Assembly: GCF_016863435.1 (NCBI RefSeq)
Contig: NZ_BOOW01000030.1
Location: 62,001-126,000, forward strand
Direction: 5' to 3'
Origin: Sinosporangium siamense
GTDB lineage: Bacteria; Actinomycetota; Actinomycetes; Streptosporangiales; Streptosporangiaceae
DNA length: 64,000 nucleotides
Part shown: positions 14,033 through 31,791 of the stretch, in pieces
Numbering within the stretch: position 1 is the stretch's first letter
How the letters are laid out: every line of letters begins with the position of its first letter
Translations under genes and position numbers: made by a program
Notes under the pieces: generated by a model
What the model saw: only the letters and a program-made list of their open reading frames with translations
What the model was told of the DNA's origin: nothing
Databases searched by the model: none

Positions 14033-14036
14033 GGCC

Positions 14037-14885
14037 GTGGCCTTCGACCTGGACCTCGCTCTGGCTGCGCCGTACGATCCGGCGAGCGCGAGCGGTTACC
14101 GCGAACATCCCGAGCGGATGGGCTTTTTCACCGACACCAGTGTCTGTATCGGCTGTAAGGCGTGTGAGGTCGCCTGCAAGGAGTGGAACGCGATTCCCGA
14201 CCACCCACTCGGCTTCACCGGCATGTCCTATGACAACACCGGCGGTCTGGGTGCCTCCACCTGGCGGCACGTCGCGTTCATCGAGCAGCCGGGGCGTACG
14301 GCGGGGGCCGACGGCGCCGAGTTCCGCTGGCTGATGGCCTCCGACGTGTGCAAACACTGCACGCACGCCGCCTGCCTGGACGTCTGCCCCACCGGATCGC
14401 TGTTCCGCACCGAGTTCGGCACCGTGGTCGTACAGGAGGACATCTGCAACGGATGCGGCTACTGCGTGCCCGCGTGTCCTTACGGGGTGATCGCCCGCCG
14501 GGAGGAGGACGGCCGGGTCTGGAAGTGCACCATGTGCTACGACCGGCTCGGCGTCGGTCAGGAACCGGCGTGCGCCAAGAGTTGCCCGACCGACTCCATC
14601 CAGTTCGGCGAGTTGACCGAGTTGCGGACGCGCGCCGAGCGCAGGCTTGAGCAGTTGCATGAGGCCGGTGTGGGTTCGGCGCAACTGTACGGCCACGATC
14701 CCGGTGACGGCGTCGGCGGAACGGGCGCGTTCTTTTTGCTGCTGGACGAGCCGGAGGTTTACGGCCTGCCGCCCGACCCCGTGGTCACCACCCGGGACCT
14801 GCCCGCCATGTGGCGGCAGGTCGCCCTGGCCGCCACGGCGCTGCTCGCCGCCGTCGCCGTCACGGCCCTGGGAGCGCGTTCATGA
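14037..14885 (+). CDS. fdhB: Formate dehydrogenase iron-sulfur subunit
   Basis: A 282-residue electron-transfer subunit with four 4Fe-4S motifs. They are CIGCKACEVAC (C37, C40, C43, C47), CKHCTHAACLDVCP, CNGCGYCVPACP, and CTMCYDRL with a following CAKSCP. One membrane helix lies at the C-terminus ('VALAATALLAAVAVTALGA'), as in FdnH/FdoH. GTG 14037 sits four bases after the fdhA stop, with GGAGG about nine bases before. Its stop overlaps the next start (ATGA). It should pass electrons from FdhA to the membrane NrfD-like subunit. Confidence 0.92.
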   Translation: MAFDLDLALAAPYDPASASGYREHPERMGFFTDTSVCIGCKACEVACKEWNAIPDHPLGFTGMSYDNTGGLGASTWRHVAFIEQPGRTAGADGAEFRWLMASDVCKHCTHAACLDVCPTGSLFRTEFGTVVVQEDICNGCGYCVPACPYGVIARREEDGRVWKCTMCYDRLGVGQEPACAKSCPTDSIQFGELTELRTRAERRLEQLHEAGVGSAQLYGHDPGDGVGGTGAFFLLLDEPEVYGLPPDPVVTTRDLPAMWRQVALAATALLAAVAVTALGARS

Positions 14886-15907
14886 GCCGGACGAGCCAGA
14901 CCGACGTGCGCCTGGACGGCACCCGCGACCTGCGGCCCGATCGGGAGGCGATCACCCGCCCCGGCGGCCCCCGGGCACGCGGTGAGCGTTTGATGGTGCC
15001 CAAGGCGGACTTCCGCTCCTACTACGGCCGCCCGGTCCTGCAACCGACCCCGTGGAGCGACCACGACATCGCCGGCTATCTCTTCCTCGGCGGGCTGGCC
15101 GGGGCCTCCTCCACGCTGGCCGCCGCCGCCGATCTGATGGGGAGGCCGCACCTGGCCCGGGCGGCCAAGGCCGGTGCCGCCTGCGCGCTCGGCGGCTCCC
15201 TCTACTGCCTCATCCACGATCTCGGCCGTCCGGCGCGGTTCCTCAACATGCTCCGGGTGTTCAAGGTCACCTCGCCGATGAGCATGGGGACCTGGATTCT
15301 CAGTGCATATGGCCCGCCGGCCGGCCTCGCCGCGCTGACCGCCGTCACCTGCCGTTTCCCGCGGGCGGGGCGCGCGGCGACCGTCACCGCCGGACTGATC
15401 GGTCCCGCCGTCGCCACCTACACCGCCGCGCTGATCTCCGACACCGCCGTGCCGGTGTGGCACGACGCGTATCGCGAGATGCCCTTCGTGTTCGCGGGCT
15501 CCGCCGCCGCCTCGGCCGGCGGTCTCGGGATCCTGGCGGCTCCCGTCACCGAGGCGGGTCCGGCCCGCAGCCTCGCACTGATCGGCGCGCTGACCGAATA
15601 CACCGCTGTGCGGCGCATGGAGCGACGGCTGGGCATGGTCGCCCGCCCGCTTAAGAAGGGGCGGGGCGGCGTGCTGATGCGTCTGGGCAAGGCATTGACG
15701 CTGACCGGGGCAGTGGCCGCGCAGACCGTCGCCCGCCGCGACAGGACCGCCGCGGTCGCCGCAGGAGCGGCCCTGCTGGCCGGGGCCCTCTGCACCCGTT
15801 TCGGCATCTTCCACGCGGGCCTGCAATCGTCCCGCGATCCGCGATACACCGTCCAACCGCAACGCGCCCGCCTGGAGAAGGCGGAAGGCGAGGGGAGCAG
15901 GTCGTGA
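14882..15907 (+). CDS. NrfD/PsrC-like membrane subunit of formate dehydrogenase
   Basis: A 341-residue polytopic membrane protein of the NrfD family, which binds quinone without haem. A 40-residue hydrophilic leader precedes eight or so helices. Family segments are 'YYGRPVLQPTPWSDHDIAGYLFLGGLAGASS', 'CLIHDLGRPARFLNMLRVFKVTSPMSMGTW' and 'DTAVPVWHDAYREMPFVFAGSAAAS'. In this operon it replaces the cytochrome b gamma subunit of FdnGHI-type enzymes. It overlaps fdhB by four bases and the following mini-ORF by four (GTGA). Confidence 0.9.
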   Translation: MSRTSQTDVRLDGTRDLRPDREAITRPGGPRARGERLMVPKADFRSYYGRPVLQPTPWSDHDIAGYLFLGGLAGASSTLAAAADLMGRPHLARAAKAGAACALGGSLYCLIHDLGRPARFLNMLRVFKVTSPMSMGTWILSAYGPPAGLAALTAVTCRFPRAGRAATVTAGLIGPAVATYTAALISDTAVPVWHDAYREMPFVFAGSAAASAGGLGILAAPVTEAGPARSLALIGALTEYTAVRRMERRLGMVARPLKKGRGGVLMRLGKALTLTGAVAAQTVARRDRTAAVAAGAALLAGALCTRFGIFHAGLQSSRDPRYTVQPQRARLEKAEGEGSRS

Positions 15908-16031: not shown

Positions 16032-17789
16032 TCACCGCGTCACGACGGTCAGCACGGCGAACAACGCGATCCCGGCCAGCACCCAGGCGATGTAGTCGCC
16101 GACGTGCCCAGAGTGCAGGCCGCGCAGCACCGTCCCCAGCCTGGCCGGCTGCGGCAGGCGGCCACCCCAGACGCCCAGGGCCGCCACGGCCAGGGCGGCC
16201 ACTATTCCCGCCAGGCCGCTCGCGACCCCGGAGAACGTCCAGGGGCTTGGGGGACGGCCGGCCGGTGCTACCGAGGCTTCGCCGTACAGGACGGCTTCGG
16301 TGTAGCCGGTGGTGAACACCTCCGCGCCGCCCGCCACGGCCGACGCCGGCAACACGACGGTGAGCAGTCCGCCGCCGAGCAGCAGCACGCCGGGAACCAG
16401 CATCGGCAGGGGCTTGCGCGGTGTCGGCTCCGCCGTCTCCGCGTCCTCGTGCTCGACCGGATGGCGGGTGGGCGCCGCACCGGCGCCGTGAAAGACACGC
16501 AGCCACACCCGGAGCACCGCGCCGCCCGTCAACCCCGCGGCCAGCAGGCCGAGCACGGTGAACCACCACCACCCGTACGGCTCGGCCGCCCGCTCGGCCA
16601 AGACCTTGCCGAGCCACATGCCGCCGGGCGGCAGCCCCGCCAGGCCGAGTCCGCCGAGCAGGAAGAGGCATGATGTGACCCGCATGCCCCGGGCGCGGCC
16701 GTGCAGTTCGGTCTCGTCCACCGTCTGGAACCGGTTGAGGAGCATGCCCGCCCCGATGAAGAGGGCGCTCTTTACTCCGGCGTGGCCGAGCAGGTAGAAC
16801 GCGGCCCCCGTCAGCGCGTCGGCGCGCATCAGGGCCACGCAGGTGAGCAGCAGCCCCACGTGGCTGATCGTGGAATACGCCAGCAGGCGCTTGATATGCG
16901 GTTGGAGCACGCACATCACGCCGCCCAGCAGCATGGTGACCGCGCCGAAGCCGGCCAGCACGGCATCGGCGGTGCCGCCGAGGATCGTCCAGTGCGCGCG
17001 GGCGACCGCGTAGACGCCCAGCTCGACCATGATCCCCGAGAAGAGCACGCAAACGGGTGTGGGCGCCACCGCGTGCGCGTCGGCCAGCCAGAAGTGGAAC
17101 GGCACAGCCGCGGCCTTCACCAGGAACCCGGTGCAAAGCAGGGTAAACGCCACAAGCAGCCCGGCGTCCGGCTCGCCCGCCGCCCGCACACGCTCCCCGA
17201 TGGCAGCGAACCCGAGTTCGCCGGTGCGGCCGTACATCAGCGCGATGCCGGTCAGCGTGAGGTAGGCGCCTATGGAGTTGACGACACCGAAGTTCAGCGC
17301 GCCGTGCACGGTACGCGCCTCCTCGGCGCGGTAGCCGGTCAGCACGTAGGCCACGGTGCTCATCAGCTCGAAGAAGACGAAGGCGTCGAACACATCGCCG
17401 GTGAGCGCGAAGGCGCACATGGCGCCCAAGAACATCAGCATCAGAACGTGGAAGATGGCCTGCACCTCGGTGAAGTACCGCCAGGAGAACATCAGCGCCG
17501 CCACGGTCAGCACTGCCACGACCAGGGCCAGGCCCGCCGCGAACGGGTCGGCGACCAGCGGGATGCCGTTGCTTATCCCGCCGTGCGGCCCCCAGCCGCC
17601 GAGCCAGACGACGACCGTGCCGTGCCGTACGGCCCGCCACAGCACCACGCCGAGCAGGCCGATCACGGTCAGCGCGGCCGCCATGGCGACGGCGTCCACG
17701 ACCACCCGGGGCAACCACCGCCCGGCCGCGGCGAGCACCATCGCCGTGACGAACGGCACCGCGAGGGCCAGTTCGACCGCGGAGAGCAC
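16032..17789 (-). CDS. Mrp/Mbh-type ion-translocating subunit D (NuoM/N-like)
   Basis: A 585-residue, about 14-helix antiporter-like subunit of the complex I/Mrp family that moves H+ or Na+ across the membrane. Key charged residues are E142 in 'FFELMSTVAYVLTGY' and K225 in 'GFLVKAAAVPFHFWLADAH', equivalent to NuoM E144 and K234. The TM8 Lys of 'K-x-G-x-Y' is Glu here (E256 in 'SGIMVELGVY'). It is the last gene of an E-F-G-DUF4040-B-C-D module, equivalent to MbhH. GTG start, three bases after subunit C. About 20 more C-terminal helical residues end at 'LFAVLTVVTR'. Confidence 0.9.
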   Translation of the reverse strand: MLSAVELALAVPFVTAMVLAAAGRWLPRVVVDAVAMAAALTVIGLLGVVLWRAVRHGTVVVWLGGWGPHGGISNGIPLVADPFAAGLALVVAVLTVAALMFSWRYFTEVQAIFHVLMLMFLGAMCAFALTGDVFDAFVFFELMSTVAYVLTGYRAEEARTVHGALNFGVVNSIGAYLTLTGIALMYGRTGELGFAAIGERVRAAGEPDAGLLVAFTLLCTGFLVKAAAVPFHFWLADAHAVAPTPVCVLFSGIMVELGVYAVARAHWTILGGTADAVLAGFGAVTMLLGGVMCVLQPHIKRLLAYSTISHVGLLLTCVALMRADALTGAAFYLLGHAGVKSALFIGAGMLLNRFQTVDETELHGRARGMRVTSCLFLLGGLGLAGLPPGGMWLGKVLAERAAEPYGWWWFTVLGLLAAGLTGGAVLRVWLRVFHGAGAAPTRHPVEHEDAETAEPTPRKPLPMLVPGVLLLGGGLLTVVLPASAVAGGAEVFTTGYTEAVLYGEASVAPAGRPPSPWTFSGVASGLAGIVAALAVAALGVWGGRLPQPARLGTVLRGLHSGHVGDYIAWVLAGIALFAVLTVVTR

Positions 17790-17792
17790 GGC

Positions 17793-18137
17793 TCACTCTT
17801 CCAAGGTGCGCAACGCGTCCGGGTCGACCGTGCCGCGCCGTTTGGACACCTGCACCGTGAGCGCCAGCAGTAGCGCCGTCACCGTCGCTCCCACCACGAC
17901 ATCGGTGAGCGTCATGGCCTGCACCACGGGATCGACGACCGGCCGCCCCGGCCGGATGTCGGAGAACACCGGCGCGGTCGCTCCCCATCGGTAGCCGACG
18001 GACAGCAGGAGCAGGTATGTCGCGGACTGCGCGACCGACAGGCACACCACGACGTGCACCAGGTTGCGGCTGGTGACGATGCCGTAGAAGCCGGCGAGCA
18101 CGATCCAGCCCGCCGTGAGGTATGCCGCCCAGGCCAT
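17793..18137 (-). CDS. Mrp/Mbh-type subunit C (NuoK-like)
   Basis: A 114-residue three-helix protein homologous to NuoK/MrpC. The helices are 'YLTAGWIVLAGFYGIVTSRNLVHVVVCLSVAQSATYLLLLSVGY' and 'VQAMTLTDVVVGATVTALLLALTVQV', with the family motif DPVVQAMTLTDVVVG. ATG 18137 overlaps the stop of subunit B (ATGA), and the frame upstream of it is not conserved. It belongs to the membrane ion-pumping module and corresponds to MbhG. Confidence 0.9.
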   Translation of the reverse strand: MAWAAYLTAGWIVLAGFYGIVTSRNLVHVVVCLSVAQSATYLLLLSVGYRWGATAPVFSDIRPGRPVVDPVVQAMTLTDVVVGATVTALLLALTVQVSKRRGTVDPDALRTLEE

Positions 18138-18835
18138 CAGCCGGTCTCCCGTACGAGCAGCGCCTGCTCGAAGAACTTGGCGAGCACGAGGATGAACGCA
18201 CACCCGACCTCCACACCGACGACCGCGTTCATCGGGATGATCAAGCCCGCGAAAGCCAGCGCCAGGACCACGAACGCCGCCGCCGCGACCGCCTCGCCGC
18301 CCTCGAACAGAGGGACAGGGCGGATCCGGTCAAGCGCCCGGTAGTCGCCGGTCAGGTAGAGCACGTGCACCGCGGTGCCGAGCACGACTCCGCCCTGGAA
18401 GCCGCCCCCGGGGCTGAGCTGCCCGTGCGCCACGACGTAGACGCCGACGAGTACGGTGACCGGGAGCAGCGCGTAGCCGGTGACCCGCAGGGCCTCGAAC
18501 ACGTCGGCGGGGCCATATCTGTGCCGCCCGGGCTCGTCCTCCTCCTCACGGCGCACCATGCGCAGCAGCACCACCACGGCGAGGGCGGAGGCCACCAGGA
18601 TGAGTTCCTCACCGAGTGTGTCCAGGGCCCGCTGATCGAAATTCACCGACGACACGGTGTTGGGGGTGCCGCGCAGCAGCGAGGCCCGCACGGCCCGGTC
18701 GCCGTATGGATGGACATCGCCGCCGAACGGCTGAAGCCCGAGCACGGCAAGTGTGAACACGGCGGCGAAGCCGAGCGCCCCCGCCGCCATCAGGCACAGT
18801 CGCAACCGTCGCACACCGTTCACACCCTTGCTCAC
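18137..18835 (-). CDS. Fused MbhE-like/MrpB subunit
   Basis: A 232-residue protein joining two parts. Residues 1-100 carry one helix and the signature 'VNFDQRALDTLGEELILVASALAVVVLL', the C-terminal piece of MrpA, which is separate MbhE in archaeal hydrogenases. Residues 105-232 are MrpB (MnhB) with four helices, including 'GQLSPGGGFQGGVVLGTA' and 'PMNAVVGVEVGCAFILVLAKFF'. GTG 18835 overlaps the DUF4040 stop. The fusion and gene order match the Mbh E-F position. It lacks the large MrpA antiporter body. Confidence 0.85.
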   Translation of the reverse strand: MSKGVNGVRRLRLCLMAAGALGFAAVFTLAVLGLQPFGGDVHPYGDRAVRASLLRGTPNTVSSVNFDQRALDTLGEELILVASALAVVVLLRMVRREEEDEPGRHRYGPADVFEALRVTGYALLPVTVLVGVYVVAHGQLSPGGGFQGGVVLGTAVHVLYLTGDYRALDRIRPVPLFEGGEAVAAAAFVVLALAFAGLIIPMNAVVGVEVGCAFILVLAKFFEQALLVRETG

Positions 18836-19086
18836 GGCGGCTCCTCACGCTGGTGCCGCCGGATCGCCGCGACGGCGAGAATCACCATCAGCGGCACCAT
18901 GACCGTGCCCACCGCCAGTTGTGCCATGGCCACGTCGGGCGCCTGGAGTGTCACGAACAGGACACCCAGGCTCAAGCCGTACCCGGACAGCACGATCGCC
19001 TGGCGCACGGGATCGCGGGTCAGCACTACAGCGGTCGCCAGCAGCGCCGCCAGCGCGAACGCCCCCGCCAGCAGCGCCTCACCCAT
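18832..19086 (-). CDS. DUF4040/MbhD-like subunit
   Basis: An 84-residue, two- or three-helix protein: 'GEALLAGAFALAALLATAVVLTRDPVRQAIVLSGYGLSLGVLFVTLQAPDVAMAQLAVG'. It corresponds to the domain found at MrpA's C-terminus (DUF4040), which stands alone as MbhD in hydrogenase-type modules. The motif 'APDVAMAQLAVG' is diagnostic. It overlaps subunit G by eight bases and subunit B by four. Confidence 0.87.
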   Translation of the reverse strand: MGEALLAGAFALAALLATAVVLTRDPVRQAIVLSGYGLSLGVLFVTLQAPDVAMAQLAVGTVMVPLMVILAVAAIRRHQREEPP

Positions 19087-19351
19087 CGGGGTTCCTCATC
19101 GCGCGGGCGGCCGCGACGACGGTCGCCGGACCGGTCGCGACGAGCAGCAGGCCGATGACCGCAAGCTTGAGTGCGTCCGGCACGGCCGCCGCGCCGGCCA
19201 TGAGGCCCGCCACGACCAGCGGAACGCCGCACGTGGTGATCGCGGCGACGAAGTGCAGACGGCGGGTGCCCGCGGTGGTCAGCAGTCCGGTCGCCGCAGC
19301 CACGGTCACCGCCACCCCGGTCCACACGAGGACCTGGGCCAGTGTGGTCAC
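19079..19351 (-). CDS. Mrp/Mbh-type subunit G
   Basis: A 90-residue MnhG/PhaG-type protein with three helices. The hallmark is 'AGTRRLHFVAAITTCGVPLVVAG' followed by 'LKLAVIGLLLVATGPATVVAAARAM'. GTG 19351 overlaps the subunit F stop (GTGA). The sequence upstream in the same frame is the other-frame product of subunit F and is not part of the gene. It is an accessory membrane subunit for assembly of the antiporter module. Confidence 0.87.
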   Translation of the reverse strand: MTTLAQVLVWTGVAVTVAAATGLLTTAGTRRLHFVAAITTCGVPLVVAGLMAGAAAVPDALKLAVIGLLLVATGPATVVAAARAMRNPDG

Positions 19352-19593
19352 AGGGTGCGTCCCAGGAAGCGGGCGTAGACGAGCGACCCGGCGCACGACA
19401 GGAGGGCGGCGAGCAGGGCCACATCGACATAGGCGGTCCTGCCGTACGCGGCGGCCAGGAGCAGCAGCACCAGTGCGGACACGGGCCCGGTGGCCACCAG
19501 TCCGATCAGCCGCTCGGACGGCTCCCCGCGCGTGGTCGCGAGCAGGCACGGCAGCATCGCGCCGACCATCATGACCAGGGCGGCGGCGCTCAT
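19348..19593 (-). CDS. Mrp/Mbh-type subunit F
   Basis: An 81-residue MnhF-type protein with three helices ('SAAALVMMVGAMLPCLLATTRG', 'GLVATGPVSALVLLLLAAAYG', 'VDVALLAALLSCAGSLVYARF'). The pattern of a small polar loop after helix 1 and a 'Y.D.ALL' third helix is family-typical. It overlaps E and G by four bases each. Equivalent to MbhB. Confidence 0.85.
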   Translation of the reverse strand: MSAAALVMMVGAMLPCLLATTRGEPSERLIGLVATGPVSALVLLLLAAAYGRTAYVDVALLAALLSCAGSLVYARFLGRTL

Positions 19594-20054
19594 CGGCGCA
19601 TCATCCGGGTCAGGCCGGCGGTCTTTCCCAACCGGTGCACGATGAGCTTGTCAGGGCGTCCGGTGCGCACCCGGATGACATAAGTGCCGGGCGAGAACGA
19701 CAAGGCCAGCGTGGCCAGCGCGTGCCAGGCGGTTGTGCGCTTCTCGCCGCCCGTTTCAGGGCAGGGCACTTCGTCGAAGCCGGTGGGCACATCGCGGCGG
19801 GCCAGCACCCGGGCCAGAGTCCACAGGTCGGGAGGGACTCGCGCGAGCATCGGCGGCACCCAGCGCAGCCACGCCGCCCGCGGCCGGAAGCGCAACCGCT
19901 CCGCCCGCCGCGTGAGTGCCGCCAGCCACGCGCAAACCGCCGCCGTGACCGCACCCACCGCCAGTTCGACGGGCGGATAGGAGCTGACGAGGGCGAGGTA
20001 GCAGCCGAACAACAGCAGCCACCACACGGCGAACTCCACAACCGATCCCCGCAC
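19590..20054 (-). CDS. Mrp/Mbh-type subunit E
   Basis: A 154-residue MnhE-type protein. Two N-terminal helices ('VVEFAVWWLLLFGCYLALVSS', 'PVELAVGAVTAAVCAWLAALT') are followed by a cytoplasmic domain with 'WHALATLALSFSPGTYVIRV' and 'LIVHRLGKTAG', close to the family 'SLTPGT' and 'LYVHxL' motifs. It is the first gene of the module. A 54-base gap with a 17-bp-period direct repeat separates it from ccmH in the same direction, so it may have its own promoter or read through from ccm. Confidence 0.87.
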   Translation of the reverse strand: MRGSVVEFAVWWLLLFGCYLALVSSYPPVELAVGAVTAAVCAWLAALTRRAERLRFRPRAAWLRWVPPMLARVPPDLWTLARVLARRDVPTGFDEVPCPETGGEKRTTAWHALATLALSFSPGTYVIRVRTGRPDKLIVHRLGKTAGLTRMMRR

Positions 20055-20108: not shown

Positions 20109-20978
20109 CTAACGTGACCGTCCTTTCGGGTTGTGACCTTGCTCAAGCAGTTGCCCCACCTGGGCGCGGGCCGGGTGGCCTGGCGGGGCCGCCGCAAGGA
20201 ACCGCCGCAGCGTACGGCGCCCGTGCTCCGGGTCGAGTGCGTAGCGGGCCGAGCCGAGGACCAGCAACACGTCGGGATCGTCCGGAGAGCGGCGGATCAG
20301 CGGGCGCAATGCGGCCACGGCCTCGGCCGGGAGTCCCGCCTTCAGCAGCGCGAACGCGAGCAGGCAGCGCGCCGTACGGTGACCGGGACGGTCCTGGACG
20401 GCCTGCCGGAACACCTCTATCGCCCCGTGCAGGTCTCCGCGCTCCTGAAGTGCGCGCCCACGGGTCAAGGGATCCACGGCTCCCGCGGAAGCCGGCATGG
20501 GGGGCGCCGGAGTGCGGGTGAGCATCACGGTGAAGCCGCCGCCGGCGACGGCGAGGACCACCAGGACCGTGAGGCCGGCGCCCCGCGCCGGTGCGGAGGC
20601 GACGGCTCGGGGCCGGTAGACGCGCACCACGATCAGGCCGGCGACCAGCAGGGCGAGCACCGGCGCCAGCCACACCAGCAGCGCGATGCCGGAGGCACGC
20701 GGCGTGAGCAGGATCCAGTCTCCGTAGCGCCCGCGGAAATACTCGCGTATCTCCTCTGCGTCCTGCCCCTGGGCGAAGCGGCGGGCGATCTCGGTGCGCA
20801 TCGCGCCGGCCATTTCACTGCGGGACTCGGCGGCCGAGGCGGCCTGGCAGTCGGGGCAGCGCAAGGTCGCGGCGATCTCCAGCACACCCTCTTCGGGTTC
20901 TGCCGCCGAGTGCCAGATCGCCAGTCCGGCGAGAAGCGCCAGCAGGGCGGACGCCGCGCCTCGGACCGCCGTCTTCAC
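20109..20978 (-). CDS. ccmH: Cytochrome c maturation protein CcmH with C-terminal TPR (CcmI-like)
   Basis: A 289-residue membrane thiol-redox component that presents reduced apocytochrome c for haem ligation. It has an N-terminal signal anchor, then the redox motif LRCPDCQ (LRCxxCQ), 'REYFRGRYGDWILLTP', a second helix, a third helix near residue 160, and TPR-like repeats ('GRALQERGDLHGAIEVFRQAV'). This is the CcmH-CcmI fusion known from E. coli. GTG 20978 overlaps the ccmG stop (GTGA). It is the last gene of ccmCDEFGH. Confidence 0.9.
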   Translation of the reverse strand: MKTAVRGAASALLALLAGLAIWHSAAEPEEGVLEIAATLRCPDCQAASAAESRSEMAGAMRTEIARRFAQGQDAEEIREYFRGRYGDWILLTPRASGIALLVWLAPVLALLVAGLIVVRVYRPRAVASAPARGAGLTVLVVLAVAGGGFTVMLTRTPAPPMPASAGAVDPLTRGRALQERGDLHGAIEVFRQAVQDRPGHRTARCLLAFALLKAGLPAEAVAALRPLIRRSPDDPDVLLVLGSARYALDPEHGRRTLRRFLAAAPPGHPARAQVGQLLEQGHNPKGRSR

Positions 20979-21511
20979 CGGGCCAGCCGCGGCAGCAGAT
21001 GGCGGTCGAGCCATTCGGCGTCCACCGGGCCCACTCCTCGCCGCGCCACCGTGCCGTCGCGATCGAGCACGTAGGTCTCCGGCACGCCGAAGACGCCCAG
21101 TTCCAGGGCCAGCCGTCCGTCGGGGTCGGTCAGGTGCGGGAAGGCGTCCGAGATCCCGATCTCGCGCAGAAAGGCCTCCGCCACCCGGGGCGAGTCGCGG
21201 ATGTTCAGGCCGACGACCCGCAAGCCGCGTGGCCGAAGCCGCCGCGCGAGGTCGGCCAGCATCGGGAGTTCCTGCCGGCAGGTCCCGCACCAGGACGCCC
21301 AGACGGTTACCAGCACGACATGACCCCGCAGGCCGGCGAGGGCGAACCGCTCACCTCCGAGGGTGGTGCCGGACACGTTCGGCGCCGTGGCCCGAGCAGG
21401 CACGACGGGCGTCGCCGCGCCGTCACGGAGGAGTCCCTGGGCCAGCACGGCGGCGAGCCCGCAGGCGCCCAGCGCCACGGCCCCGGCCACCAGGTATGGA
21501 CGCGCGGTCAT
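20975..21511 (-). CDS. ccmG: CcmG/DsbE thioredoxin-like protein
   Basis: A 178-residue membrane-anchored thioredoxin that keeps the CxxCH thiols of apocytochromes reduced. It has one N-terminal helix ('VAGAVALGACGLAAVLAQGLL'), then 'VTVWASWCGTCRQELPML' with the WCGTC active site, and 'YVLDRDGTVARRGVGPVD', which contains the loop near the cis-Pro region ('GVPETYV'). GTGA overlaps on both sides. The role follows from the System I operon. Confidence 0.92.
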   Translation of the reverse strand: MTARPYLVAGAVALGACGLAAVLAQGLLRDGAATPVVPARATAPNVSGTTLGGERFALAGLRGHVVLVTVWASWCGTCRQELPMLADLARRLRPRGLRVVGLNIRDSPRVAEAFLREIGISDAFPHLTDPDGRLALELGVFGVPETYVLDRDGTVARRGVGPVDAEWLDRHLLPRLAR

Positions 21512-23457
21512 CGCGCCGCCGTCTCCGCCGGCAGGCGGGCGGGCTCCCGCTCCGCCGGGACGGGCCCTCGCCGCCGGGCGGGGACCTGAAGACAGAGCAG
21601 GCCGCCGAGGACAAGAGCGCCGGCAGCGGTCCAGAGCACGGCCATCATCGGGTTGACCGCCGCGCGCAGCACCACCGAGTCACCGATCTCCGACACCGCG
21701 ACGTACAGGTCGGCGAGCGGTGTCATGTGCACGTCGGGTGAGGCCACAGGCGGTGCTCCCGACCGGGTGTAGAAGGTGAGCCCCGGGCGCAGGAGCCCGA
21801 CCGGCGTCCCCTCGCGGTAGACCGTCAGCCGGGCCGCGGTGCCCATGTTGTCCTCCGTGCGCGTGCGTTCCACGCCGTCCAGCCGCAGGACGTAACCGTG
21901 GACGGGCATCGACTCGCCGACGCGCAGCCGGGCCTCGACCGCGTCCGCCGCGCCGGCGGAGGCCGCGATCGCCACCGCTGCCACCGCGACCCCGGCATGC
22001 GCGATCACCCCGCCCAACCGGCGCCTGGGCTCCGCCCGCGCCAGGACCCTGATCCCATGCAGGCCGATCAACCCGGCGGCACGGGTCGCGACGGCCCCCA
22101 AGGCGAAGGCGCCGATCCCATACGCGAGCAGGGACGGCACGGAATGACGCCCGGTGACACCGAGCACGATCACGGTCAGCGCCCCGAGCACGGCGGGCCG
22201 GGCGAGGCGGCGGGCCAGCACGCCCGGTTCGGACCGGCTCCATGCCGCGAACGGCGCAGCCGCCATGAGCACGAGCAGCGTGAACCCGAACGGTGGAGTC
22301 ACACGGTCGAAGTACGGTGGCCCGACGGAGACCCGCTCACCGCGTGCGAGCTCGGCGAGGAGCGGGAACAGGGTGCCGAGCAGCACGGTGAAGGCGAGGG
22401 CGGCGAGTAGCACAACGCCGCCCAGCAGCAGCGACTCCCGCGACAGGCCGCGGATCACCGCGCGGTCCGCGCCGACGCGGCCGGCCCGCCAGACCACCAG
22501 GCCTCCGGCTCCGATCAGCGCCGCGGTGAAGACGCCCAGCAGCACCGGGCCCGCCGCCGAGCCGGTGAAGGAGTGCACGCTCGCCACCGCCCCACCGCGG
22601 GTGAGGAAGACGCCGAGGAGCACAAGCAGGAACGCGGTCACCGCGAGGGTGAGGCTGAAGGTCCCAAGGACGCCTCGCCGCTCCCGCGCGGCCAGGGAGT
22701 GCAGTAGCGCGGTGGCGACGAGCCACGGCATCAGGGAGGCGTTCTCGACCGGGTCCCACTCCCAGTAGCCGCCCCAGCCCAGCACGCCGTACGACCAGGC
22801 CGCGCCCAGCGCGATGCCCGCGGTGAGGGGGATCCAGGCCACCAGCGTCCAGTGCCGCATCACCCGGGCCGCCTCCTTGCCCGTGCGCCCGGTCACGAGT
22901 CCGGCGACGCCGTAGGCGAACGGCACGACGAGCCCGGCGGTGCCGAGATAGAGCAGCGGCGGGTGAACGCCCATCAGGGGGTGGCCGCGCAGCAGCGGGT
23001 CGGGGCCCGGGCCGTCGGCCGGGACGGGATCTGCGGGCCGGAACGGGTCGGCGGCGAACAACGTGAGGGCGAAGAATACCGCGCACACCACGCTGACGAC
23101 CGCCATGGCGATCCCGTGCTCGGCGCCTGGGCCGCTTTTGGCGGCGCAGGCCAGGGCGAGTCCGGCACTGACCAGCACCCACAGGACCAGCGAACCCTCC
23201 ATGCCCGACCACAGGCTGGTGAACGTGTAATACGGGGGGACGTGCCGGCCTCCGTGCGCCGCCACGAACCCGACCCTGAAGTCGTGGCTCAGCAGCGCCC
23301 ATTCCAGCAGCGCGAACGCCGCCACAGCGGCCCCGCACGCGACTGCCGTGAGCCTGGCGGCATGACGGCGTGTGCCGGGGAAGGTCCAGGCGGGGGCGGC
23401 GACCGAGGCCGCCACCAGGCCCGTCGCCAGGGACGACGAGCCGAGAGCGGAGATCAC
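21508..23457 (-). CDS. ccmF: Cytochrome c haem lyase CcmF
   Basis: A 649-residue, about 15-helix haem lyase that joins haem from CcmE to apocytochromes. The tryptophan-rich WWD domain is 'WSYGVLGWGGYWEWDPVENASLMPW'-like around residues 220-245. Flanking His-containing segments are 'GHPLMGVHPPLLYLG' and 'FTSLWSGMEGSLVLWVL'. The periplasmic C-terminal part ('VHGYVLRLDGVERTRTEDN') matches CcmF. Length is usual for the family. It overlaps ccmE and ccmG by four bases. Confidence 0.94.
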   Translation of the reverse strand: MISALGSSSLATGLVAASVAAPAWTFPGTRRHAARLTAVACGAAVAAFALLEWALLSHDFRVGFVAAHGGRHVPPYYTFTSLWSGMEGSLVLWVLVSAGLALACAAKSGPGAEHGIAMAVVSVVCAVFFALTLFAADPFRPADPVPADGPGPDPLLRGHPLMGVHPPLLYLGTAGLVVPFAYGVAGLVTGRTGKEAARVMRHWTLVAWIPLTAGIALGAAWSYGVLGWGGYWEWDPVENASLMPWLVATALLHSLAARERRGVLGTFSLTLAVTAFLLVLLGVFLTRGGAVASVHSFTGSAAGPVLLGVFTAALIGAGGLVVWRAGRVGADRAVIRGLSRESLLLGGVVLLAALAFTVLLGTLFPLLAELARGERVSVGPPYFDRVTPPFGFTLLVLMAAAPFAAWSRSEPGVLARRLARPAVLGALTVIVLGVTGRHSVPSLLAYGIGAFALGAVATRAAGLIGLHGIRVLARAEPRRRLGGVIAHAGVAVAAVAIAASAGAADAVEARLRVGESMPVHGYVLRLDGVERTRTEDNMGTAARLTVYREGTPVGLLRPGLTFYTRSGAPPVASPDVHMTPLADLYVAVSEIGDSVVLRAAVNPMMAVLWTAAGALVLGGLLCLQVPARRRGPVPAEREPARLPAETAAR

Positions 23458-23837
23458 CGCGATCCGTCCGCAGCGCGGTATTCCTCGGAATGTTTGACCA
23501 TCAGCCGATCGGAGCGGAACCTGCCGTCCGCGCCGAGCACACCCTCGGCCACGACGCCTTGCCCCTCGCGGAACACGGGCGGCCGGTATCCGGTGTGCAC
23601 CACATCGATGGTCTTGGTGCCGTCGGTGAGGGAGAAGTGCAACTCCCGGCCGTCGGGGTGCGCCGTGCCGGGAACGACGAGGCCGCCGAGGCGCACGTGC
23701 TCACCGCCGGCCGGGCGGAGTTCGCTGGGAGTGCGGTAGTAGGTCAGGCCCTCACCCAGGCCAGTGCAGGCCAGAGGGGTCATGGCGAGGGCCGTGACCG
23801 CGACGAGCAGGAGCGGCAGCCTGCCGCCGGGGCTCAT
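23454..23837 (-). CDS. ccmE: Haem chaperone CcmE
   Basis: A 127-residue membrane-anchored OB-fold protein. A short N-terminal hydrophobic segment ('LPLLLVAVTALAMTPLA') is followed by 'YYRTPSEL', 'VRLGGLVVPGT' and the C-terminal haem-binding motif 'LMVKHSEEY', which carries the covalent-haem His of KHDExY-type CcmE (not the archaeal Cys variant). ATG 23837 overlaps the ccmD stop (ATGA). The longer upstream frame is the other-frame product of ccmD and ccmC. Confidence 0.92.
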   Translation of the reverse strand: MSPGGRLPLLLVAVTALAMTPLACTGLGEGLTYYRTPSELRPAGGEHVRLGGLVVPGTAHPDGRELHFSLTDGTKTIDVVHTGYRPPVFREGQGVVAEGVLGADGRFRSDRLMVKHSEEYRAADGSR

Positions 23838-23926
23838 GTGCGCCGCCTTCCCGACCACAGTGCGTATGAAGCCCAGGTGGCGGCGGTGAGCAGGTAGCCG
23901 GCCACCACCCAGCCCCACCCGTTCAC
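23834..23926 (-). CDS. ccmD: CcmD-like single-helix peptide
   Basis: A 30-residue peptide: one helix ('GWGWVVAGYLLTAATWASYALW') then SGRRRT. The Tyr in the helix and basic end are typical of CcmD, which helps release holo-CcmE from CcmC. GTG 23926 overlaps the ccmC stop, and its TGA overlaps the ccmE ATG. Position and size, rather than similarity, support the call. Confidence 0.8.
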   Translation of the reverse strand: MNGWGWVVAGYLLTAATWASYALWSGRRRT

Positions 23927-24675
23927 GCGGCACTCCGCACCAGCACGCGCCCGCACGATTCCCCGGCGGGCTCGGCGGCACGGGCCGGAGCCGGCTCCAG
24001 GTCGCGGACGCGGCGCAGGACCACCCAGGCGCCCATGAGGGCGAACGCCACCGCGGCGGCGATCAGGGCGGCGAACATCGCCGGGTGGACCGGCACCTGT
24101 CCGGGCGGGCGCAGGAAGGTGGGCGGCTGGTGCAGCGTGCGCCACCACAGCACCGAGAAGTGCACGACCGGCACGACGGCGAAGCCGGCGACGCCGGTCG
24201 CCGCGGTGAGGCGGGCTCTGCGCACCGGGTCGCCCCCCGGCCAGTACGGCAGCGCGAGGTAGGCGAGAAGGACCAGCAGCATGGCCGCCGTCGCCGTCAG
24301 CCGCGGATCCCAGGTCCACCACACGCCCCACACCGGACGTCCCCACAGGGAGCCGAGCGCGATGGTCAGGGCCGTCATGCCGGCCCCGAGCTCCGCCGCG
24401 GCCCGGCCGAGCCGCTCCCACACCCCTTCGCCCCGCCACAGCCGCATGGCGCCCGCTCCCGACACGGCGGCGAAGGCCGCGAAGGCCGCCCAGGCGGCGG
24501 GGACGTGGACATACATCAGGCGCTGGGTCTCGCCTTGCAGCGCGTCGGGAGGCGCGATCACGAGCCCGAGCGCCAGGGCCGCGGCACACGCGGCCAGCGC
24601 GCCCGTCCCCAAGCACCGCTCCAGCCTCCGCCTTCCGGCTGCCACAGCATCGTTGCCGGCCAACTCATCCCCCAC
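23923..24675 (-). CDS. ccmC: Haem-handling membrane protein CcmC
   Basis: A 250-residue, six-helix protein that loads haem onto CcmE. The WWD motif is 'WGRPVWGVWWTWDPRLT', with conserved His in 'YVHVPAAW' and 'FSVLWWRTLHQPPTF'. It is first in the ccmCDEFGH operon (GTG 24675). The operon has no ccmA or ccmB (the ABC transporter that releases holo-CcmE in proteobacteria) within the window. Divergent from ctaC; the 265-base gap between them holds a GGCCCC/GGGGCC hairpin (24788-24805) and an isolated TTGACG (24882). Confidence 0.93.
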   Translation of the reverse strand: MGDELAGNDAVAAGRRRLERCLGTGALAACAAALALGLVIAPPDALQGETQRLMYVHVPAAWAAFAAFAAVSGAGAMRLWRGEGVWERLGRAAAELGAGMTALTIALGSLWGRPVWGVWWTWDPRLTATAAMLLVLLAYLALPYWPGGDPVRRARLTAATGVAGFAVVPVVHFSVLWWRTLHQPPTFLRPPGQVPVHPAMFAALIAAAVAFALMGAWVVLRRVRDLEPAPARAAEPAGESCGRVLVRSAA

Positions 24676-24940
24676 GAAGCTGTCGTCCGCGAATCACTTG
24701 TCCAGTACCTAAGCGGCAGGCGTGACGCAGCCGCCGGAGGCGACGGCGAGGTTGCGTCGATGAGGCGGCAAAAAAATCATGACGCCCGGCCCCGCCGACG
24801 GGGCCTGCCGAAATGGGCCCGCCACCCGCGACGGGCTTTCACCTCGGTAAAGACCTGCGCCGGCCCGCGTGGCGGCGATGTTTGACGTGATCATGCTTCG
24901 GTAACCATGGAGCCCTGACGCTGTGGCGATCGGGAGGCCG

Positions 24941-25975
24941 ATGAGCACATCTCGGCGCCGCGTTCCGGCGGCGCGAACGAGGACCGCAACCGCCCGCGTG
25001 GCACGCATATGCTGCGCGGGCCTCCTCGTGCTGGTCGCCTCCTGCAGCGGCCGGAGCCCGTCCACGCTGTCTCCGGCCGGGCCCGGGGCGAGGCGTGTCG
25101 CGGGGCTGTGGTGGCTGCTGTTCGGCATCTCCGCCGTCGTGTCGGTCGTCGTGACGCTGCTCTTGCTGTGGGCGATGATCCGCCGCCGCGGGCCCGGCGT
25201 CGTGCCGCACCCCGGCTCCGGCACACGGTTCGTGGTGTCACTGGGGGTGATCGTCCCGGCGATCGTGCTCACGTTCGTCTATGCCATAGGCCTGCGCGAC
25301 ATGCGCGCCCTGGAGGCGCCGCGCGGTGCGGACTCCCTGGTGGTGGAAGTGACCGGCCACCAATGGTGGTGGGAGGTCCGCTATCCCGCCCACGGCGCGG
25401 TGACGGCCAACGAGATCCACATCCCGGCCGGACGCCCCGTGCTGCTTCGGCTGCGGACCGCCGACGTCAACCACAGCTTCTGGGTCCCGCAGCTCATGGT
25501 GAAGACCGACATGATCGCCGGCCGCACCACACAGATGTGGCTGCAGGCCGACCGCCCGGGGACCTACCGGGGCCAGTGCGCCGAATACTGCGGGCTGCAG
25601 CACGGCCGCATGGCCTTCCACGTGGTCGCCGACCCACCGGCGGCGTTCACGTCCTGGCTCGCGAACCAGGCCCGCCCCGCCGCCGAACCGCGTGAGGCCA
25701 TGGCCGCCCGGGGGCGGCAGGTGATCCAGTCGGCGTCCTGCGCGTCCTGCCACACTGTGCGCGGCACCTCCGCGGCGGGCCGGCGCGGTCCGGACCTGAC
25801 CCATCTCGCGAGCCGCCGCCATCTCGGCGCCGGGACGGTGCCGAACACCCCCGGTCACCTGGGCGGCTGGATCGCCGACTCCCAGGCCGTCAAGCCGGGC
25901 AACCAGATGCCGCCGCAGCCTCTTTCACCCGAGGACCTGCGCTCCCTGATCGCCTACCTGGGCACGCTGCGTTAG
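24941..25975 (+). CDS. ctaC: Cytochrome c oxidase subunit II with fused cytochrome c (caa3 type)
   Basis: A 344-residue lipoprotein subunit II. The lipobox ends at Cys35 ('LLVLVASC'). Two helices ('WLLFGISAVVSVVVTLLLLW', 'LGVIVPAIVLTFVYAIGL') are followed by the CuA cupredoxin with 'GHQWWW', His in 'VNHSFWVP' and 'GQCAEYCGLQHGRM'. A C-terminal class I cytochrome c follows, with CASCH and the axial Met in 'GNQMPPQPL'. Such fusion defines caa3 oxidases. ATG 24941 has GGAGG only three bases upstream; GTG 24923 is an alternative. It is first in the oxidase/bc1 operon. Confidence 0.92.
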   Translation: MSTSRRRVPAARTRTATARVARICCAGLLVLVASCSGRSPSTLSPAGPGARRVAGLWWLLFGISAVVSVVVTLLLLWAMIRRRGPGVVPHPGSGTRFVVSLGVIVPAIVLTFVYAIGLRDMRALEAPRGADSLVVEVTGHQWWWEVRYPAHGAVTANEIHIPAGRPVLLRLRTADVNHSFWVPQLMVKTDMIAGRTTQMWLQADRPGTYRGQCAEYCGLQHGRMAFHVVADPPAAFTSWLANQARPAAEPREAMAARGRQVIQSASCASCHTVRGTSAAGRRGPDLTHLASRRHLGAGTVPNTPGHLGGWIADSQAVKPGNQMPPQPLSPEDLRSLIAYLGTLR

Positions 25976-28555: not shown

Positions 28556-28978
28556 TTGAACGCGAACGACAGTTCCACGGCTCCGAACGCCCGGGGGACC
28601 GGGCCGCCGTCACCCCAGGCCGCCAAGATCGGCCGCTGGCTGCTCGCCTTCGCCGTCGGCGGTGGAATCATCTCCTGGGCCGTGCACCTTCTCGTGGCCT
28701 GGGCCGTGGTGGAGGTGACCTGCGCGCGCAACCGGACCTACGTGGGTGGTCTGCCGCTCTACGTGGTGGTCATCCTGGCGACCGCGGTGCCCGCCGCCGT
28801 CGCGGCGGCCTCTGCGGCGACCGCGTGGCGGTTGCGCCGCTCCCTGCGCGACGCGAGCGGACGGCGTGAGATCCGCGCCCGTTTCCTGGCGCAGCTCGGC
28901 CTGTGGCTGGACGGACTGTCGCTGATGATGATCGCCTTCGGCGCGGCAGCGGTGGTGGTGTTCCGGCCATGCGCCTGA
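28556..28978 (+). CDS. Three-helix membrane protein of the oxidase operon
   Basis: A 140-residue protein with TTG start eight bases after ctaE and GAGG upstream. Hydrophobic helices lie at about residues 28-50, 68-88 and 113-134, with a basic loop (WRLRRSLRDASGRREIRARF) between helices 2 and 3. I recognise no family. Its place between ctaE and ctaG, and its 10-base overlap with ctaG, suggest an oxidase-associated or assembly protein. Confidence 0.65.
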   Translation: MNANDSSTAPNARGTGPPSPQAAKIGRWLLAFAVGGGIISWAVHLLVAWAVVEVTCARNRTYVGGLPLYVVVILATAVPAAVAAASAATAWRLRRSLRDASGRREIRARFLAQLGLWLDGLSLMMIAFGAAAVVVFRPCA

Positions 28979-29829
28979 TCGCGTTCCTGGCGCACGGCGG
29001 AGACCACGCGGGTCTCGAACCGGCGACCCTGTTGACGGCAGCGGGGCTTGTCCTGGCCGGCGGCGGCTACCTCGCGGGGCTGCGTGTGCTCGCGGGCGGG
29101 GACCAGAACACCGTCCGCCAGGGGGCGCGCAGGTTGGGCACGCACCGCGCATATGCCTTCGCCTGCGGCATGCTCGCGGTCGCGGTCGCGCTGCTGCCGC
29201 CGTTCGAGCCGATCGCCGACCAGCGTTTCTCGACGCACATGGTCCAGCACATGCTGCTGATCGCGGTCGCGGCCCCGCTGCTGGCCCTGGGCGCCGCCGA
29301 GGTGGTGATCCCGCTGGCGCTGCCGGTGCGCGCACGCCGCCGCCTGGCGGCGCTGACCCACGCGAGCCGCACCTTGCCGCTGCTGCGGCTGCTGTGGCTG
29401 CCGGTCACCGCCTGGCTGGCCCACCTCGCCGTGTTGTGGTTCTGGCACCTGCCAGGCCCCTACGACCTCGCCCTGAAGTCCGACCCCGTTCACGCTCTGG
29501 AGCACCTGACCTTCCTCGCCGGCGCGTGGCTGCTGTGGTGGCACGTGACCACACCCACCGCCCGCAAGCTGAGTGCCCCGGTGGCGCTGCTGTACATGTT
29601 CGTCACCGCGGTGCCCAGTGCCGCCCTCGGCGCGGTGCTCACTCTGGCCCCCACCCCGCTGTTTCCTGTTCAGGCCGGAGCCGCGGCCCGGTCGGGCGTC
29701 GATCCACTGGCGGACCAGCAGCTCGCCGGGCTGGTCATGTGGGTGCCCGCCGACGTCGTCTACCTCATCTCCTTCGTGATTCTTTTCCTGCTCTGGATGC
29801 GGCCCACCTCCACGGAGGCGCAGCGATGA
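28969..29829 (+). CDS. ctaG: Cytochrome c oxidase assembly factor CtaG (caa3-type)
   Basis: A 286-residue, seven-helix membrane protein of the caa3_CtaG family, needed for copper or caa3 assembly in Bacillus. Diagnostic segments are 'RFSTHMVQHMLLIAVAAPLLALGA', 'LAVLWFWHLPGPYDLAL', 'LEHLTFLAGAWLLWWHV' and 'ADQQLAGLVMWVPADVVYL', with the conserved His residues. ATG 28969 lies inside the previous gene's end. Its stop overlaps the following cytochrome gene (ATGA). Confidence 0.88.
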   Translation: MRLIAFLAHGGDHAGLEPATLLTAAGLVLAGGGYLAGLRVLAGGDQNTVRQGARRLGTHRAYAFACGMLAVAVALLPPFEPIADQRFSTHMVQHMLLIAVAAPLLALGAAEVVIPLALPVRARRRLAALTHASRTLPLLRLLWLPVTAWLAHLAVLWFWHLPGPYDLALKSDPVHALEHLTFLAGAWLLWWHVTTPTARKLSAPVALLYMFVTAVPSAALGAVLTLAPTPLFPVQAGAAARSGVDPLADQQLAGLVMWVPADVVYLISFVILFLLWMRPTSTEAQR

Positions 29830-30203
29830 GCCCTGCCGCCATGCGGCTCCCGGCCGCCTGCGCATTGGTGTTCGCGCTCGCCGCATGCGGCCCCGCCCTC
29901 ACCACCCCCGGGCCGGTCCCGTACGGCCGCCCGGAGCGCGGCCAGGCGCTGATCAACCAGTACGGCTGCGCCTCATGCCACACCGTGCCCGGTGTGCGCG
30001 AAGCCGACGCCCTGGTCGGCCCGCCGCTGAACTCCTTCGCCCGGCGCGGCTACATCGCCGGGGAGCTGGTGAACAACGCGGGCAACCTGGTCCGCTGGAT
30101 CCGCCATCCCCAGGCGGTCGAACCCGGAACCGCGATGCCCGACCTCGGCGTCACCGAGCAGGACGCGCGGGACATCGCCGCCTACCTGCTCACCTTGGAG
30201 TGA
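29826..30203 (+). CDS. Lipoprotein class I cytochrome c
   Basis: A 125-residue monohaem cytochrome. The lipobox 'VFALAAC' gives Cys21 as the acylation site. The haem is bound at CASCH, with the axial Met in 'GTAMPDLGV'. It is a membrane-tethered electron carrier, probably linking bc1 (genes immediately downstream) to caa3 (upstream). ATGA overlap with ctaG. Its own maturation would need the adjacent Ccm proteins. Confidence 0.9.
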   Translation: MSPAAMRLPAACALVFALAACGPALTTPGPVPYGRPERGQALINQYGCASCHTVPGVREADALVGPPLNSFARRGYIAGELVNNAGNLVRWIRHPQAVEPGTAMPDLGVTEQDARDIAAYLLTLE

Positions 30204-30214
30204 GGCCGGTGGAC

Positions 30215-30940
30215 ATGCGCAGACCGACGCCCGCCGTGTGCCTCGCGCTCGCGGCCTTCGCCCTGACCGCCGTCGCGGGCCTGGCCGCCGCGAATCCGGC
30301 ACACGATCCGGTCGAACGCGGCAGGCAGCTCTACGGCGCGAGCTGCGCGGGCTGCCACGGCCAGTCGGGCGAGGGATTCATGACCAGCCCCAGCCTGCGC
30401 GGGGTGGGCGCCGCCTCGGCCGACTTCCAGCTCTCCACCGGTCGTATGCCCCTGTCCGCACCGGACGCCCGGCCTCATCCGCGCGAGCCGGCCTTCGACC
30501 ACCAGGACATCGCCGCGCTCACCGCCTTCGTCGCCTCCCTGGGCGGCGGGCCGCAGGTCCCGGCGGTCGGGCCGGGCGACCCACGCAAGGGGCGCACGCT
30601 CTACCTCGCGAGCTGCGCCTCCTGCCACTCCGCCTCAGGGGTGGGCGCGGCCCTTCCGGGGGGTGGGGCGGCCCCGTCGCTGCTGAACACCAAACCGACC
30701 CAGGTGGCCGAGGCCGTCCGCCTCGGGCCGGGCGCCATGCCGGCCTTCGACACCAAGACGCTGACCGAGGCCGAGGTGAACTCGATCATCGCCTACATCG
30801 GCACGGTCCGCGACGAGTTCCGGCACGGCGGAGCCGCGATCGGCGGCGCCGGTCCCGTCCCGGAGGGACTCGTGGCCTGGGTCATCGGACTCGGAGTGCT
30901 GATCCTGGTCATCCTGTTCCTCGGCAGGAGGGCATCGTGA
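30215..30940 (+). CDS. qcrC: Dihaem cytochrome c subunit of cytochrome bcc complex (QcrC)
   Basis: A 241-residue actinobacterial-type cytochrome cc. An N-terminal signal helix ('VCLALAAFALTAVAGLAAA') is followed by two class I haem domains with CAGCH and CASCH and axial Met regions 'GRMPLSAP' and 'GAMPAFD', then a C-terminal anchor ('GLVAWVIGLGVLILVILFLG'). It replaces cytochrome c1. ATG 30215 is preferred for spacing to TGAGG; GTG 30209 is possible. GTGA overlap with qcrA. Confidence 0.92.
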   Translation: MRRPTPAVCLALAAFALTAVAGLAAANPAHDPVERGRQLYGASCAGCHGQSGEGFMTSPSLRGVGAASADFQLSTGRMPLSAPDARPHPREPAFDHQDIAALTAFVASLGGGPQVPAVGPGDPRKGRTLYLASCASCHSASGVGAALPGGGAAPSLLNTKPTQVAEAVRLGPGAMPAFDTKTLTEAEVNSIIAYIGTVRDEFRHGGAAIGGAGPVPEGLVAWVIGLGVLILVILFLGRRAS

Positions 30941-31791
30941 TCACGGCTCGACGGAGGGCCGAGCGGGGGGCCGCGGCGGCGTTCGGCCTCACCGCCGTCG
31001 CCGGTGTGTTCATCGGAGTGGTTTACGTCATGGGCGGCAACACCGCGCTGCTGGGCATCGGTCTCGCCGTTGCCTTCGCCTCACTCGCGGTGGGACTCGC
31101 CCTGTGGGCACAGCATCTGCTGCCCGAGCGAGCTTACGTCGAGGAGCGCGAGCCCGCGCCCTCACCTCCCCGGCTGCGCGAAGCGCTCGCCGCCGAGCTG
31201 AACCGGGACGACCGCCCACTCGCCCAGGCCCCCCTGCCCCGGCGGATGTTGATGCTCGCGCTCGCCGTACTCGCCGTGGTCGCGGTGTTTCCAGTCCGCT
31301 CGCTGCTGTTCAGGGTGCGCGACCCCGCACGTGCTCTGGCCGAGACACCCTGGCGGGCGGGCGCACGCGTGGTGGACGACACGGGCCGCAGGCTTCGCCC
31401 CGCCGACATCCCGCCGGGCGGCATGGTGACCGTCTATCCCGACGGGCACGTGGGCGCCGCGGACGCGATGGCGGTGCTCGTCCGGGTCGACCCCGCACTG
31501 CTCGCGCTGCCCGCCGGCCGCGAGGGATGGAACGTGGACGGCCTGGTGTGCTACTCCAAGCTGTGCACCCATGCCGGCTGCCCGGTCGGCCTGTTCGTGC
31601 AGACCACATCCCAGCTCGCCTGCCCGTGCCACCAATCCGCCTTCGACGTGCTGCGCGGCGCCGTCCCCGTCGCCGGCCCCGCCGCCCGCCCGCTGCCCCA
31701 GCTCCCGCTCGGTGTCGGCGCCGACGGCCTGCTGGTGGCTCGCGGGGGCTTCACCGCCCCCGTCGGCGCAGGCTACTGGAGGCGGAAATGA
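30937..31791 (+). CDS. qcrA: Rieske iron-sulfur subunit of cytochrome bcc complex (QcrA)
   Basis: A 284-residue actinobacterial Rieske protein with two N-terminal helices and a third before the cluster domain ('MLALAVLAVVAVFPVRSLLF'). 2Fe-2S ligands are in 'YSKLCTHAGCPVGLF' and 'LACPCHQSAFDVLRG'. It is shorter than the 350-400 residues common in Mycobacterium and Streptomyces. The end 'PVGAGYWRRK' runs into qcrB with an ATGA overlap. Confidence 0.92.
   Translation: MITARRRAERGAAAAFGLTAVAGVFIGVVYVMGGNTALLGIGLAVAFASLAVGLALWAQHLLPERAYVEEREPAPSPPRLREALAAELNRDDRPLAQAPLPRRMLMLALAVLAVVAVFPVRSLLFRVRDPARALAETPWRAGARVVDDTGRRLRPADIPPGGMVTVYPDGHVGAADAMAVLVRVDPALLALPAGREGWNVDGLVCYSKLCTHAGCPVGLFVQTTSQLACPCHQSAFDVLRGAVPVAGPAARPLPQLPLGVGADGLLVARGGFTAPVGAGYWRRK

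Follow-up and report, generated by a model that had tools for sequence, protein, structure and literature searches.

A System I cytochrome c maturation operon without detected ccmAB, next to a caa3/bcc gene cluster in Sinosporangium siamense

The stretch of DNA analyzed here (the window) covers 64,000 nucleotides of contig NZ_BOOW01000030.1 from the actinomycete Sinosporangium siamense. An operon for cytochrome c maturation by System I (Ccm) is located on its minus strand, at positions 20109–24675. The genes are in the order ccmC-D-E-F-G-H, with a TPR tail on CcmH, and a reading of the sequence finds overlaps of 4 nucleotides (GTGA/ATGA) at all five junctions. The features of the operon are as follows.

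23923–24675, minus strand: ccmC, haem-handling WWD protein of 250 aa (WGVWWTWDPRL); PF01578, 89 bits; TIGR01191, 143 bits, below the cut-off of 186
23834–23926, minus strand: ccmD, single-helix peptide of 30 aa, assigned by sequence reading
23454–23837, minus strand: ccmE, haem chaperone of 127 aa, His type (KHSEEY); PF03100, 83 bits
21508–23457, minus strand: ccmF, haem lyase of 649 aa (WGGYWEWDP); PF01578, 115 bits, and CcmF_C PF16327, 179 bits; TIGR00353, 379 bits, below the cut-off of 569
20975–21511, minus strand: ccmG, thioredoxin-like protein of 178 aa (WCGTC); Redoxin PF08534, 70 bits; DsbE TIGR00385, 100 bits, below the cut-off of 123
20109–20978, minus strand: ccmH fused to a CcmI-like TPR tail, 289 aa (LRCPDC); PF03918, 92 bits; TPR_16, 45 bits

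The initial annotation had described an operon of overlapping genes from ccmC to ccmH(I), with a KHSEEY-type CcmE and both WWD proteins, and the Pfam matches together with the reading of the sequence confirm this description. The likely start of ccmH is the GTG at 20978, and the listed open reading frame (ORF, 20109–21290) is too long. The 30-residue CcmD ORF gives no match in a Pfam search. All eight named relatives, like the sister lineage L139 (see below), have a CcmD-like short ORF in the equivalent place.

The hallmarks of System I are present in the window: a CcmC with the WWD motif and two periplasmic histidines, CcmE, CcmF (which has a WWD motif as well), and the thiol components CcmG and CcmH. 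In an alignment of CcmC with the solved E. coli protein (7f02_C), the equivalents of His60 and His184 (P-His1 and P-His2) and of the WWD loop, including Asp126 and Arg128, are all kept. Nine Streptosporangiaceae genomes bear the set, the host included (to be referred to as carriers), and the equivalents of His60, the Trp119–Arg128 region and His184 are present in all the carrier rows that cover these positions. The Pro-rich P-His2 loop of CcmC was considered as a special feature and rejected, as L139, which bears CcmAB, has a similar loop. The haem-binding His and Tyr residues of CcmE are kept in alignments with solved CcmE structures (1j6q, 8ce8, 1sr3), and the KHS[EDN]EY motif is found in all nine carrier loci. 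The alignment of CcmF to its solved homolog (6zmq) spans 620 residues. CcmC and CcmF have ordinary lengths, and no extra domains able to replace CcmB were seen.

The CcmE of Nonomuraea wenchangensis (L032, 9425–10387) is extended in frame at its C-terminus by about 95 residues, which resemble a cupredoxin on visual reading (a Cys...His...Met ending, with no Pfam match). This extension is absent from the CcmE of the other carriers. The CcmH motif of this species is VRCPDC.

The window set resembles E. coli CcmABCDEFGH in having a CcmC with both histidines and the WWD motif, CcmD, a His-type CcmE, CcmF, CcmG and CcmH. It differs in that CcmA and CcmB, which E. coli reportedly needs for the release of holo-CcmE, are not detected, in the 30-residue length of CcmD, and in the TPR tail of CcmH. 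ResB and CcsA were not found at the ccm locus, and System II (CcsBA/ResBC) is not the system encoded here.

Searches for CcmB and CcmA

No ccmA or ccmB gene is found in the operon of the window, in agreement with the initial annotation. The searches that it proposed were made in the whole host genome (8.86 Mb in 84 contigs, 99% complete). The CcmB profile has no match in this genome at E ≤ 1, nor at E ≤ 10, and the search for System II components locates ResB and CcsA on another contig (C23, see below).

CcmB scores above the cut-off in none of the nine carriers. Seven of them, found like the host in a sample of the order, give weak matches of at most 24 bits, not above those in CcmE-negative genomes (25 bits in G003), and the ninth, Sphaerisporangium fuscum (G695), gives no match to the profile. 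As a control, the first 80 of the 169 further genomes of the phylum with CcmE were examined, and 78 of these 80 have CcmB; the two without it are G309, which is 86% complete, and G366. Among 46 genomes found through CcmF, 38 are from outside the family and 8 from inside it. CcmB is present in 36 of the former (the misses being G705 and G711) and in none of the latter, 7 of which are the same organisms as in the order sample. The P value for the absence of CcmB is 9e-11, and ignores shared ancestry.

The search with the CcmA profile gives 150 scored matches in the host genome at E ≤ 1e-10. The best of these, at 143 bits, is an ATPase on contig C44, the only host gene to pass the CcmA cut-off, and the next has 117 bits. 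The C44 ATPase was rejected as a hidden CcmA, as its partner is a DUF6297 permease rather than CcmB. An ATPase of this kind (G000:C44:103078–103641; L002, L018), scoring over the curated cut-off and paired with DUF6297, is likely to give rise to wrong CcmA annotations in actinomycetes. Near the ccm set of the window, no ABC transporter gene was found that is conserved at the loci of the other carriers.

The respiratory island and the origin of the set

Upstream of ccmC, the plus strand of the window carries a cluster of genes for a caa3-type oxidase and a second cytochrome bcc complex, with the following features.

24923–25975, plus strand: coxB, caa3-type subunit II with a C-terminal cytochrome c and one CASCH; PF00116 and PF00034
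25985–27925, plus strand: coxA, oxidase subunit I; PF00115, 500 bits
28008–28559, plus strand: coxC-like ORF conserved across the island loci, named by position; no Pfam match, 51–63% identical ORF in relatives
28556–28978, plus strand: short ORF conserved in the oxidase cluster, with an uncertain start; no Pfam match, 43–67% identical in relatives
28903–29829, plus strand: ctaG, caa3 assembly factor; PF09678, 182 bits
29826–30203, plus strand: monohaem cytochrome c of 125 aa, CASCH at 29967; PF00034, 43 bits
30215–30940, plus strand: second qcrC, start inferred inside ORF 29885–30940; two CxxCH; NF050122, 231 bits, over the cut-off of 200
30238–31791, plus strand: second qcrA (Rieske), conserved part from about residue 236 of the ORF; NF050121, 229 bits, below the cut-off of 275; PF00355
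31104–33206, plus strand: second qcrB (cytochrome b), conserved part from about residue 252 of the ORF; NF050120, 593 bits, over the cut-off of 500

The four CxxCH sites that had been noted in this cluster are confirmed, and belong to CoxB (25739), the monohaem cytochrome (29967) and QcrC (30344 and 30614). An ORF 68–74% identical to the monohaem cytochrome is found at the loci of seven of the eight named relatives, N. pusilla (L084) among them; it was not found in N. wenchangensis (L081), nor beyond the CoxB domain in the damaged locus L082.

The ccm and oxidase genes adjoin each other in all nine loci, in arrangements that are divergent, convergent, or split around the oxidase genes. The CoxB of the island is found at E ≤ 1e-40 in 8 of the 297 genomes of the order, exactly the eight with CcmE (P = 7e-16 for the co-occurrence, again ignoring shared ancestry). 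Because of this identical distribution, the proposal that the ccm set is a dedicated maturation system for the caa3/bcc island is supported. System II is present in the same genome, unlinked to the window locus, and has not been replaced by the Ccm set. Contig C23, outside the window, carries the only ResB of the host together with CcsA, and a canonical QcrC (368 bits) is encoded elsewhere; the standard chain is thus presumably served by System II. In a genome with its own System II, the co-inheritance of the Ccm set and one particular oxidase/bcc cluster makes a clear case of dedicated cytochrome maturation.

System I had been taken as unusual for an actinomycete. It is indeed rare in the order, where just 8 of 297 genomes have CcmE and the seven carriers besides the host all belong to the same family. 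For the phylum the statement is too strong, as 170 of 396 genomes have CcmE.

In a tree of 66 CcmF rows (with L138 and L135 left out, and no Deinococcota CcmF included), the nine Streptosporangiaceae rows form one clade (100/100). Its sister is L139, from another class of the same phylum (100/99). The Streptosporangiaceae fall within an actinomycetotal group, and the Chloroflexi rows, L083 and L085, are outside it. The suggested transfer from Chloroflexi or Deinococcota is thus rejected, in the case of Deinococcota solely through the well-supported actinomycetotal sister. In the operon of L139, ORFs for an ATPase and for CcmB are followed in one row by ccmC, D, E, F and G and an ORF for CcmH. 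Its CcmB is divergent and scores 49.5 bits, so the profile is able to see a divergent CcmB.

The tree indicates that an actinomycetotal System I with ccmAB was the source of the Streptosporangiaceae set, by descent or by acquisition. Most simply, ccmAB was probably lost once, on the stem of the family, because the nearest relative in the CcmF tree has the same gene order with ccmA-ccmB in front. Complete actinomycetotal sets, those of L139 and of the Pseudonocardia plasmid pFRP1-1 (L160), share the order ccmC-D-E-F with the window set, and the Pseudonocardia set is also close to an oxidase gene (ctaD). Unlike the window set, both have retained ccmB and an ATPase gene ahead of ccmC.

Pseudonocardia plasmids (L160, 5340–16472, pFRP1-1; and L161) carry, beside ctaD, genes for CcdA, an ABC ATPase, CcmB, CcmC (annotated ccsA), CcmE, CcmF and more. 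An IS256 transposase lies within 10 kb on one of these plasmids. With the ATPase gene, ccmB and ccmCDEF by ctaD, these plasmids, from the same class as the host, suggest that System I can be moved between actinomycetes by plasmid.

Haem transfer without CcmAB and alternative explanations

Which component of System I moves haem across the membrane is disputed. In the available accounts, this role is assigned to CcmB (PMC11868835), to an ATP-powered CcmBC interface (PMC10457321), or to CcmCD without energy, with CcmAB merely releasing holo-CcmE (PMC9616876, PMC12077264). CcmE is also reported to contact CcmB. The evidence in these papers is described as coming from E. coli and Shewanella, both of which normally have CcmAB. 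The window set keeps all that CcmCD-mediated loading needs, and is without the CcmB needed by the other two models.

We hold with moderate confidence that the operon encodes a working System I without the CcmAB ATPase/permease, serving a second, optional respiratory chain (the caa3 oxidase and the second bcc complex, with four c-haem sites). In the proposed cycle, CcmC with CcmD would deliver membrane haem to the WWD site and link it to the CcmE histidine. The holo-CcmE would then leave CcmCD without an ATP-driven pull and pass its haem to CcmF, while CcmG and CcmH-TPR would keep the apocytochrome reduced and presented. Both the crossing of haem by CcmCD and its ATPase-free release are inferred here. 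E. coli CcmCD is reported to move haem and form holo-CcmE without CcmAB, with release alone needing CcmAB (PMC12077264, PMC9616876, PMC13141917). Somewhat more tentatively, no ATPase at all may take part: CcmCD alone would carry haem across and CcmE would let go of CcmCD spontaneously, ccmAB having been lost once and the rest kept under selection.

The genes from ccmC to ccmH are all open in seven of the nine carriers, from at least four genera. The ratios of nonsynonymous to synonymous substitution (dN/dS) between Microtetraspora fusca and M. niveoalba are 0.12 for ccmC, 0.32 for ccmE, 0.26 for ccmF, 0.26 for ccmG and 0.15 for coxA. These values point to purifying selection in this one species pair, the Streptosporangium pair being too close for firm estimates.

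Several observations weigh against an ATPase-free System I under selection. The bcc genes of the same Microtetraspora pair have dN/dS of 0.36–0.56 (qcrC 0.52, qcrA 0.56), so the constraint is not equally tight throughout. Two of the nine carriers have damaged loci. In Microtetraspora glauca (L033, L073), an apparent deletion joins mid-ccmF to mid-coxB and removes the oxidase, the bcc genes and the remaining ccm genes including ccmH, and ccmE is frameshifted. In S. sandarakinum, ccmH is truncated and several ORFs are split, which may reflect sequencing errors or decay. A CcmA may also be present in the host, since the genome-wide score does not separate CcmA from other ATPases: the presumed CcmA of L139 has only 97 bits on the CcmA model, below many of the host ATPases. 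Moreover, E. coli without CcmAB is reported to show neither release of holo-CcmE nor synthesis of cytochrome c, both of which need ATP hydrolysis by CcmA (PMC12077264, PMC9616876, PMC13141917), and a change in CcmC, CcmD or CcmE would therefore be required here. No convincing compensating change was seen in these three proteins. Among CcmC positions conserved in the AB-bearing kin, 4 of 14 are lost in the transmembrane helices that contact CcmB (TM4/TM5, with limits estimated rather than taken from a structure) as compared to 9 of 60 elsewhere (P = 0.25). The four lost positions are all in TM4 (135, 139, 141 and 142). In TM5, 12 of 13 AB-bearing kin have a polar residue at position 169, where eight of nine carriers have a hydrophobic one and the ninth has Thr. 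Both patterns were picked after the fact and are not relied on.

As no significant change was found in CcmC, an unlinked and unrelated ABC transporter of the host that took over the part of CcmAB in holo-CcmE release or haem flopping retains a sizeable share of the probability, and is a possible though clearly less likely explanation. The 150 matches to the CcmA profile speak for it, with the C44 ATPase standing apart from the next. This ATPase is followed by the DUF6297 permease, however, and no ABC gene near the island is common to the loci. In addition, the contacts of CcmB, with CcmE and reportedly a tight one with CcmC through TM4/TM5, would be hard for an unrelated permease to copy. It is quite improbable that ccmAB is present and was missed through an assembly gap or through divergence beyond the reach of the profile. 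The genomes are drafts and the CcmB of the sister lineage is already divergent, but none of the nine carriers has a CcmB over the cut-off, the host has no match even at the most permissive threshold, and the weak matches in its relatives are no stronger than the background in CcmE-negative genomes. The initial annotation had offered three options, and the genome searches make a distant ccmB unlikely, which leaves a CcmAB-independent variant and help from another transporter.

Equally improbable is a supply of haem to CcmC, CcmE or CcmF from another exporter, such as the System II pair CcsBA, which would make CcmAB dispensable. The ResB and CcsA of the host are in its favor, as is a report whose title states that E. 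coli CcmFH was engineered to work without CcmABCDE. On the other hand, CcmC, CcmD and CcmE are kept with their haem-binding residues, which would be pointless were CcmF fed directly, and haem supply is reportedly not the step that requires CcmAB in E. coli (PMC12077264). That the set is decaying and functionless is the least probable of these alternatives, by a small difference. The two damaged loci and the patchy distribution are what decay would produce, but every ccm gene is open in the other carriers, ccmC and coxA have dN/dS of 0.12 and 0.15, and the deletion in M. glauca includes the client oxidase, as expected of a coupled module.

The preferred reading, a System I that works without CcmAB, has consequences for the dispute described above. 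If the system is indeed free of an ATPase, System I would not depend on either haem translocation by CcmB or ATP-driven release. These few soil actinomycetes without CcmAB would provide a natural test of haem passage across the membrane, and a CcmAB-less lineage with a selected CcmCDEFGH set and an AB-bearing sister operon makes the translocase question directly testable. No description of a natural System I without CcmAB was found in the literature, as searched by titles and abstract openings with most subscription papers outside the coverage. CcmAB is kept in the Ccm system of Methanosarcina. CcmD is absent there, the opposite loss to that in the window set, and this streamlined archaeal CcmABCEF is described as likewise a natural reduced System I (PMC9084895).

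Other genes around the set

A further oxidase subunit I gene (COX1, 522 bits) is located at 36262–37959 of the window. It is distinct from the coxA of the island, being about 44–47% identical to the coxA of the carriers, and is followed by a DrrAB-type ABC transporter pair at 38699–40562. Directly downstream of ccmH are Mrp/MBH-type antiporter-like genes (MnhD, MnhB, MbhD, MnhG, MnhE) at 16032–20054. These genes and the hemerythrin around the window set were not found at the loci of the other carriers. Beyond the Mrp-type genes, at 10790–15907, is a formate dehydrogenase set, whose alpha subunit is of the actinobacterial type (NF041513, 2010 bits) and whose other members are an iron-sulphur subunit and a membrane subunit resembling NrfD. 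Formate dehydrogenase genes adjoin the ccm set itself in the two Streptosporangium loci only, including that of S. pseudovulgare (L029).

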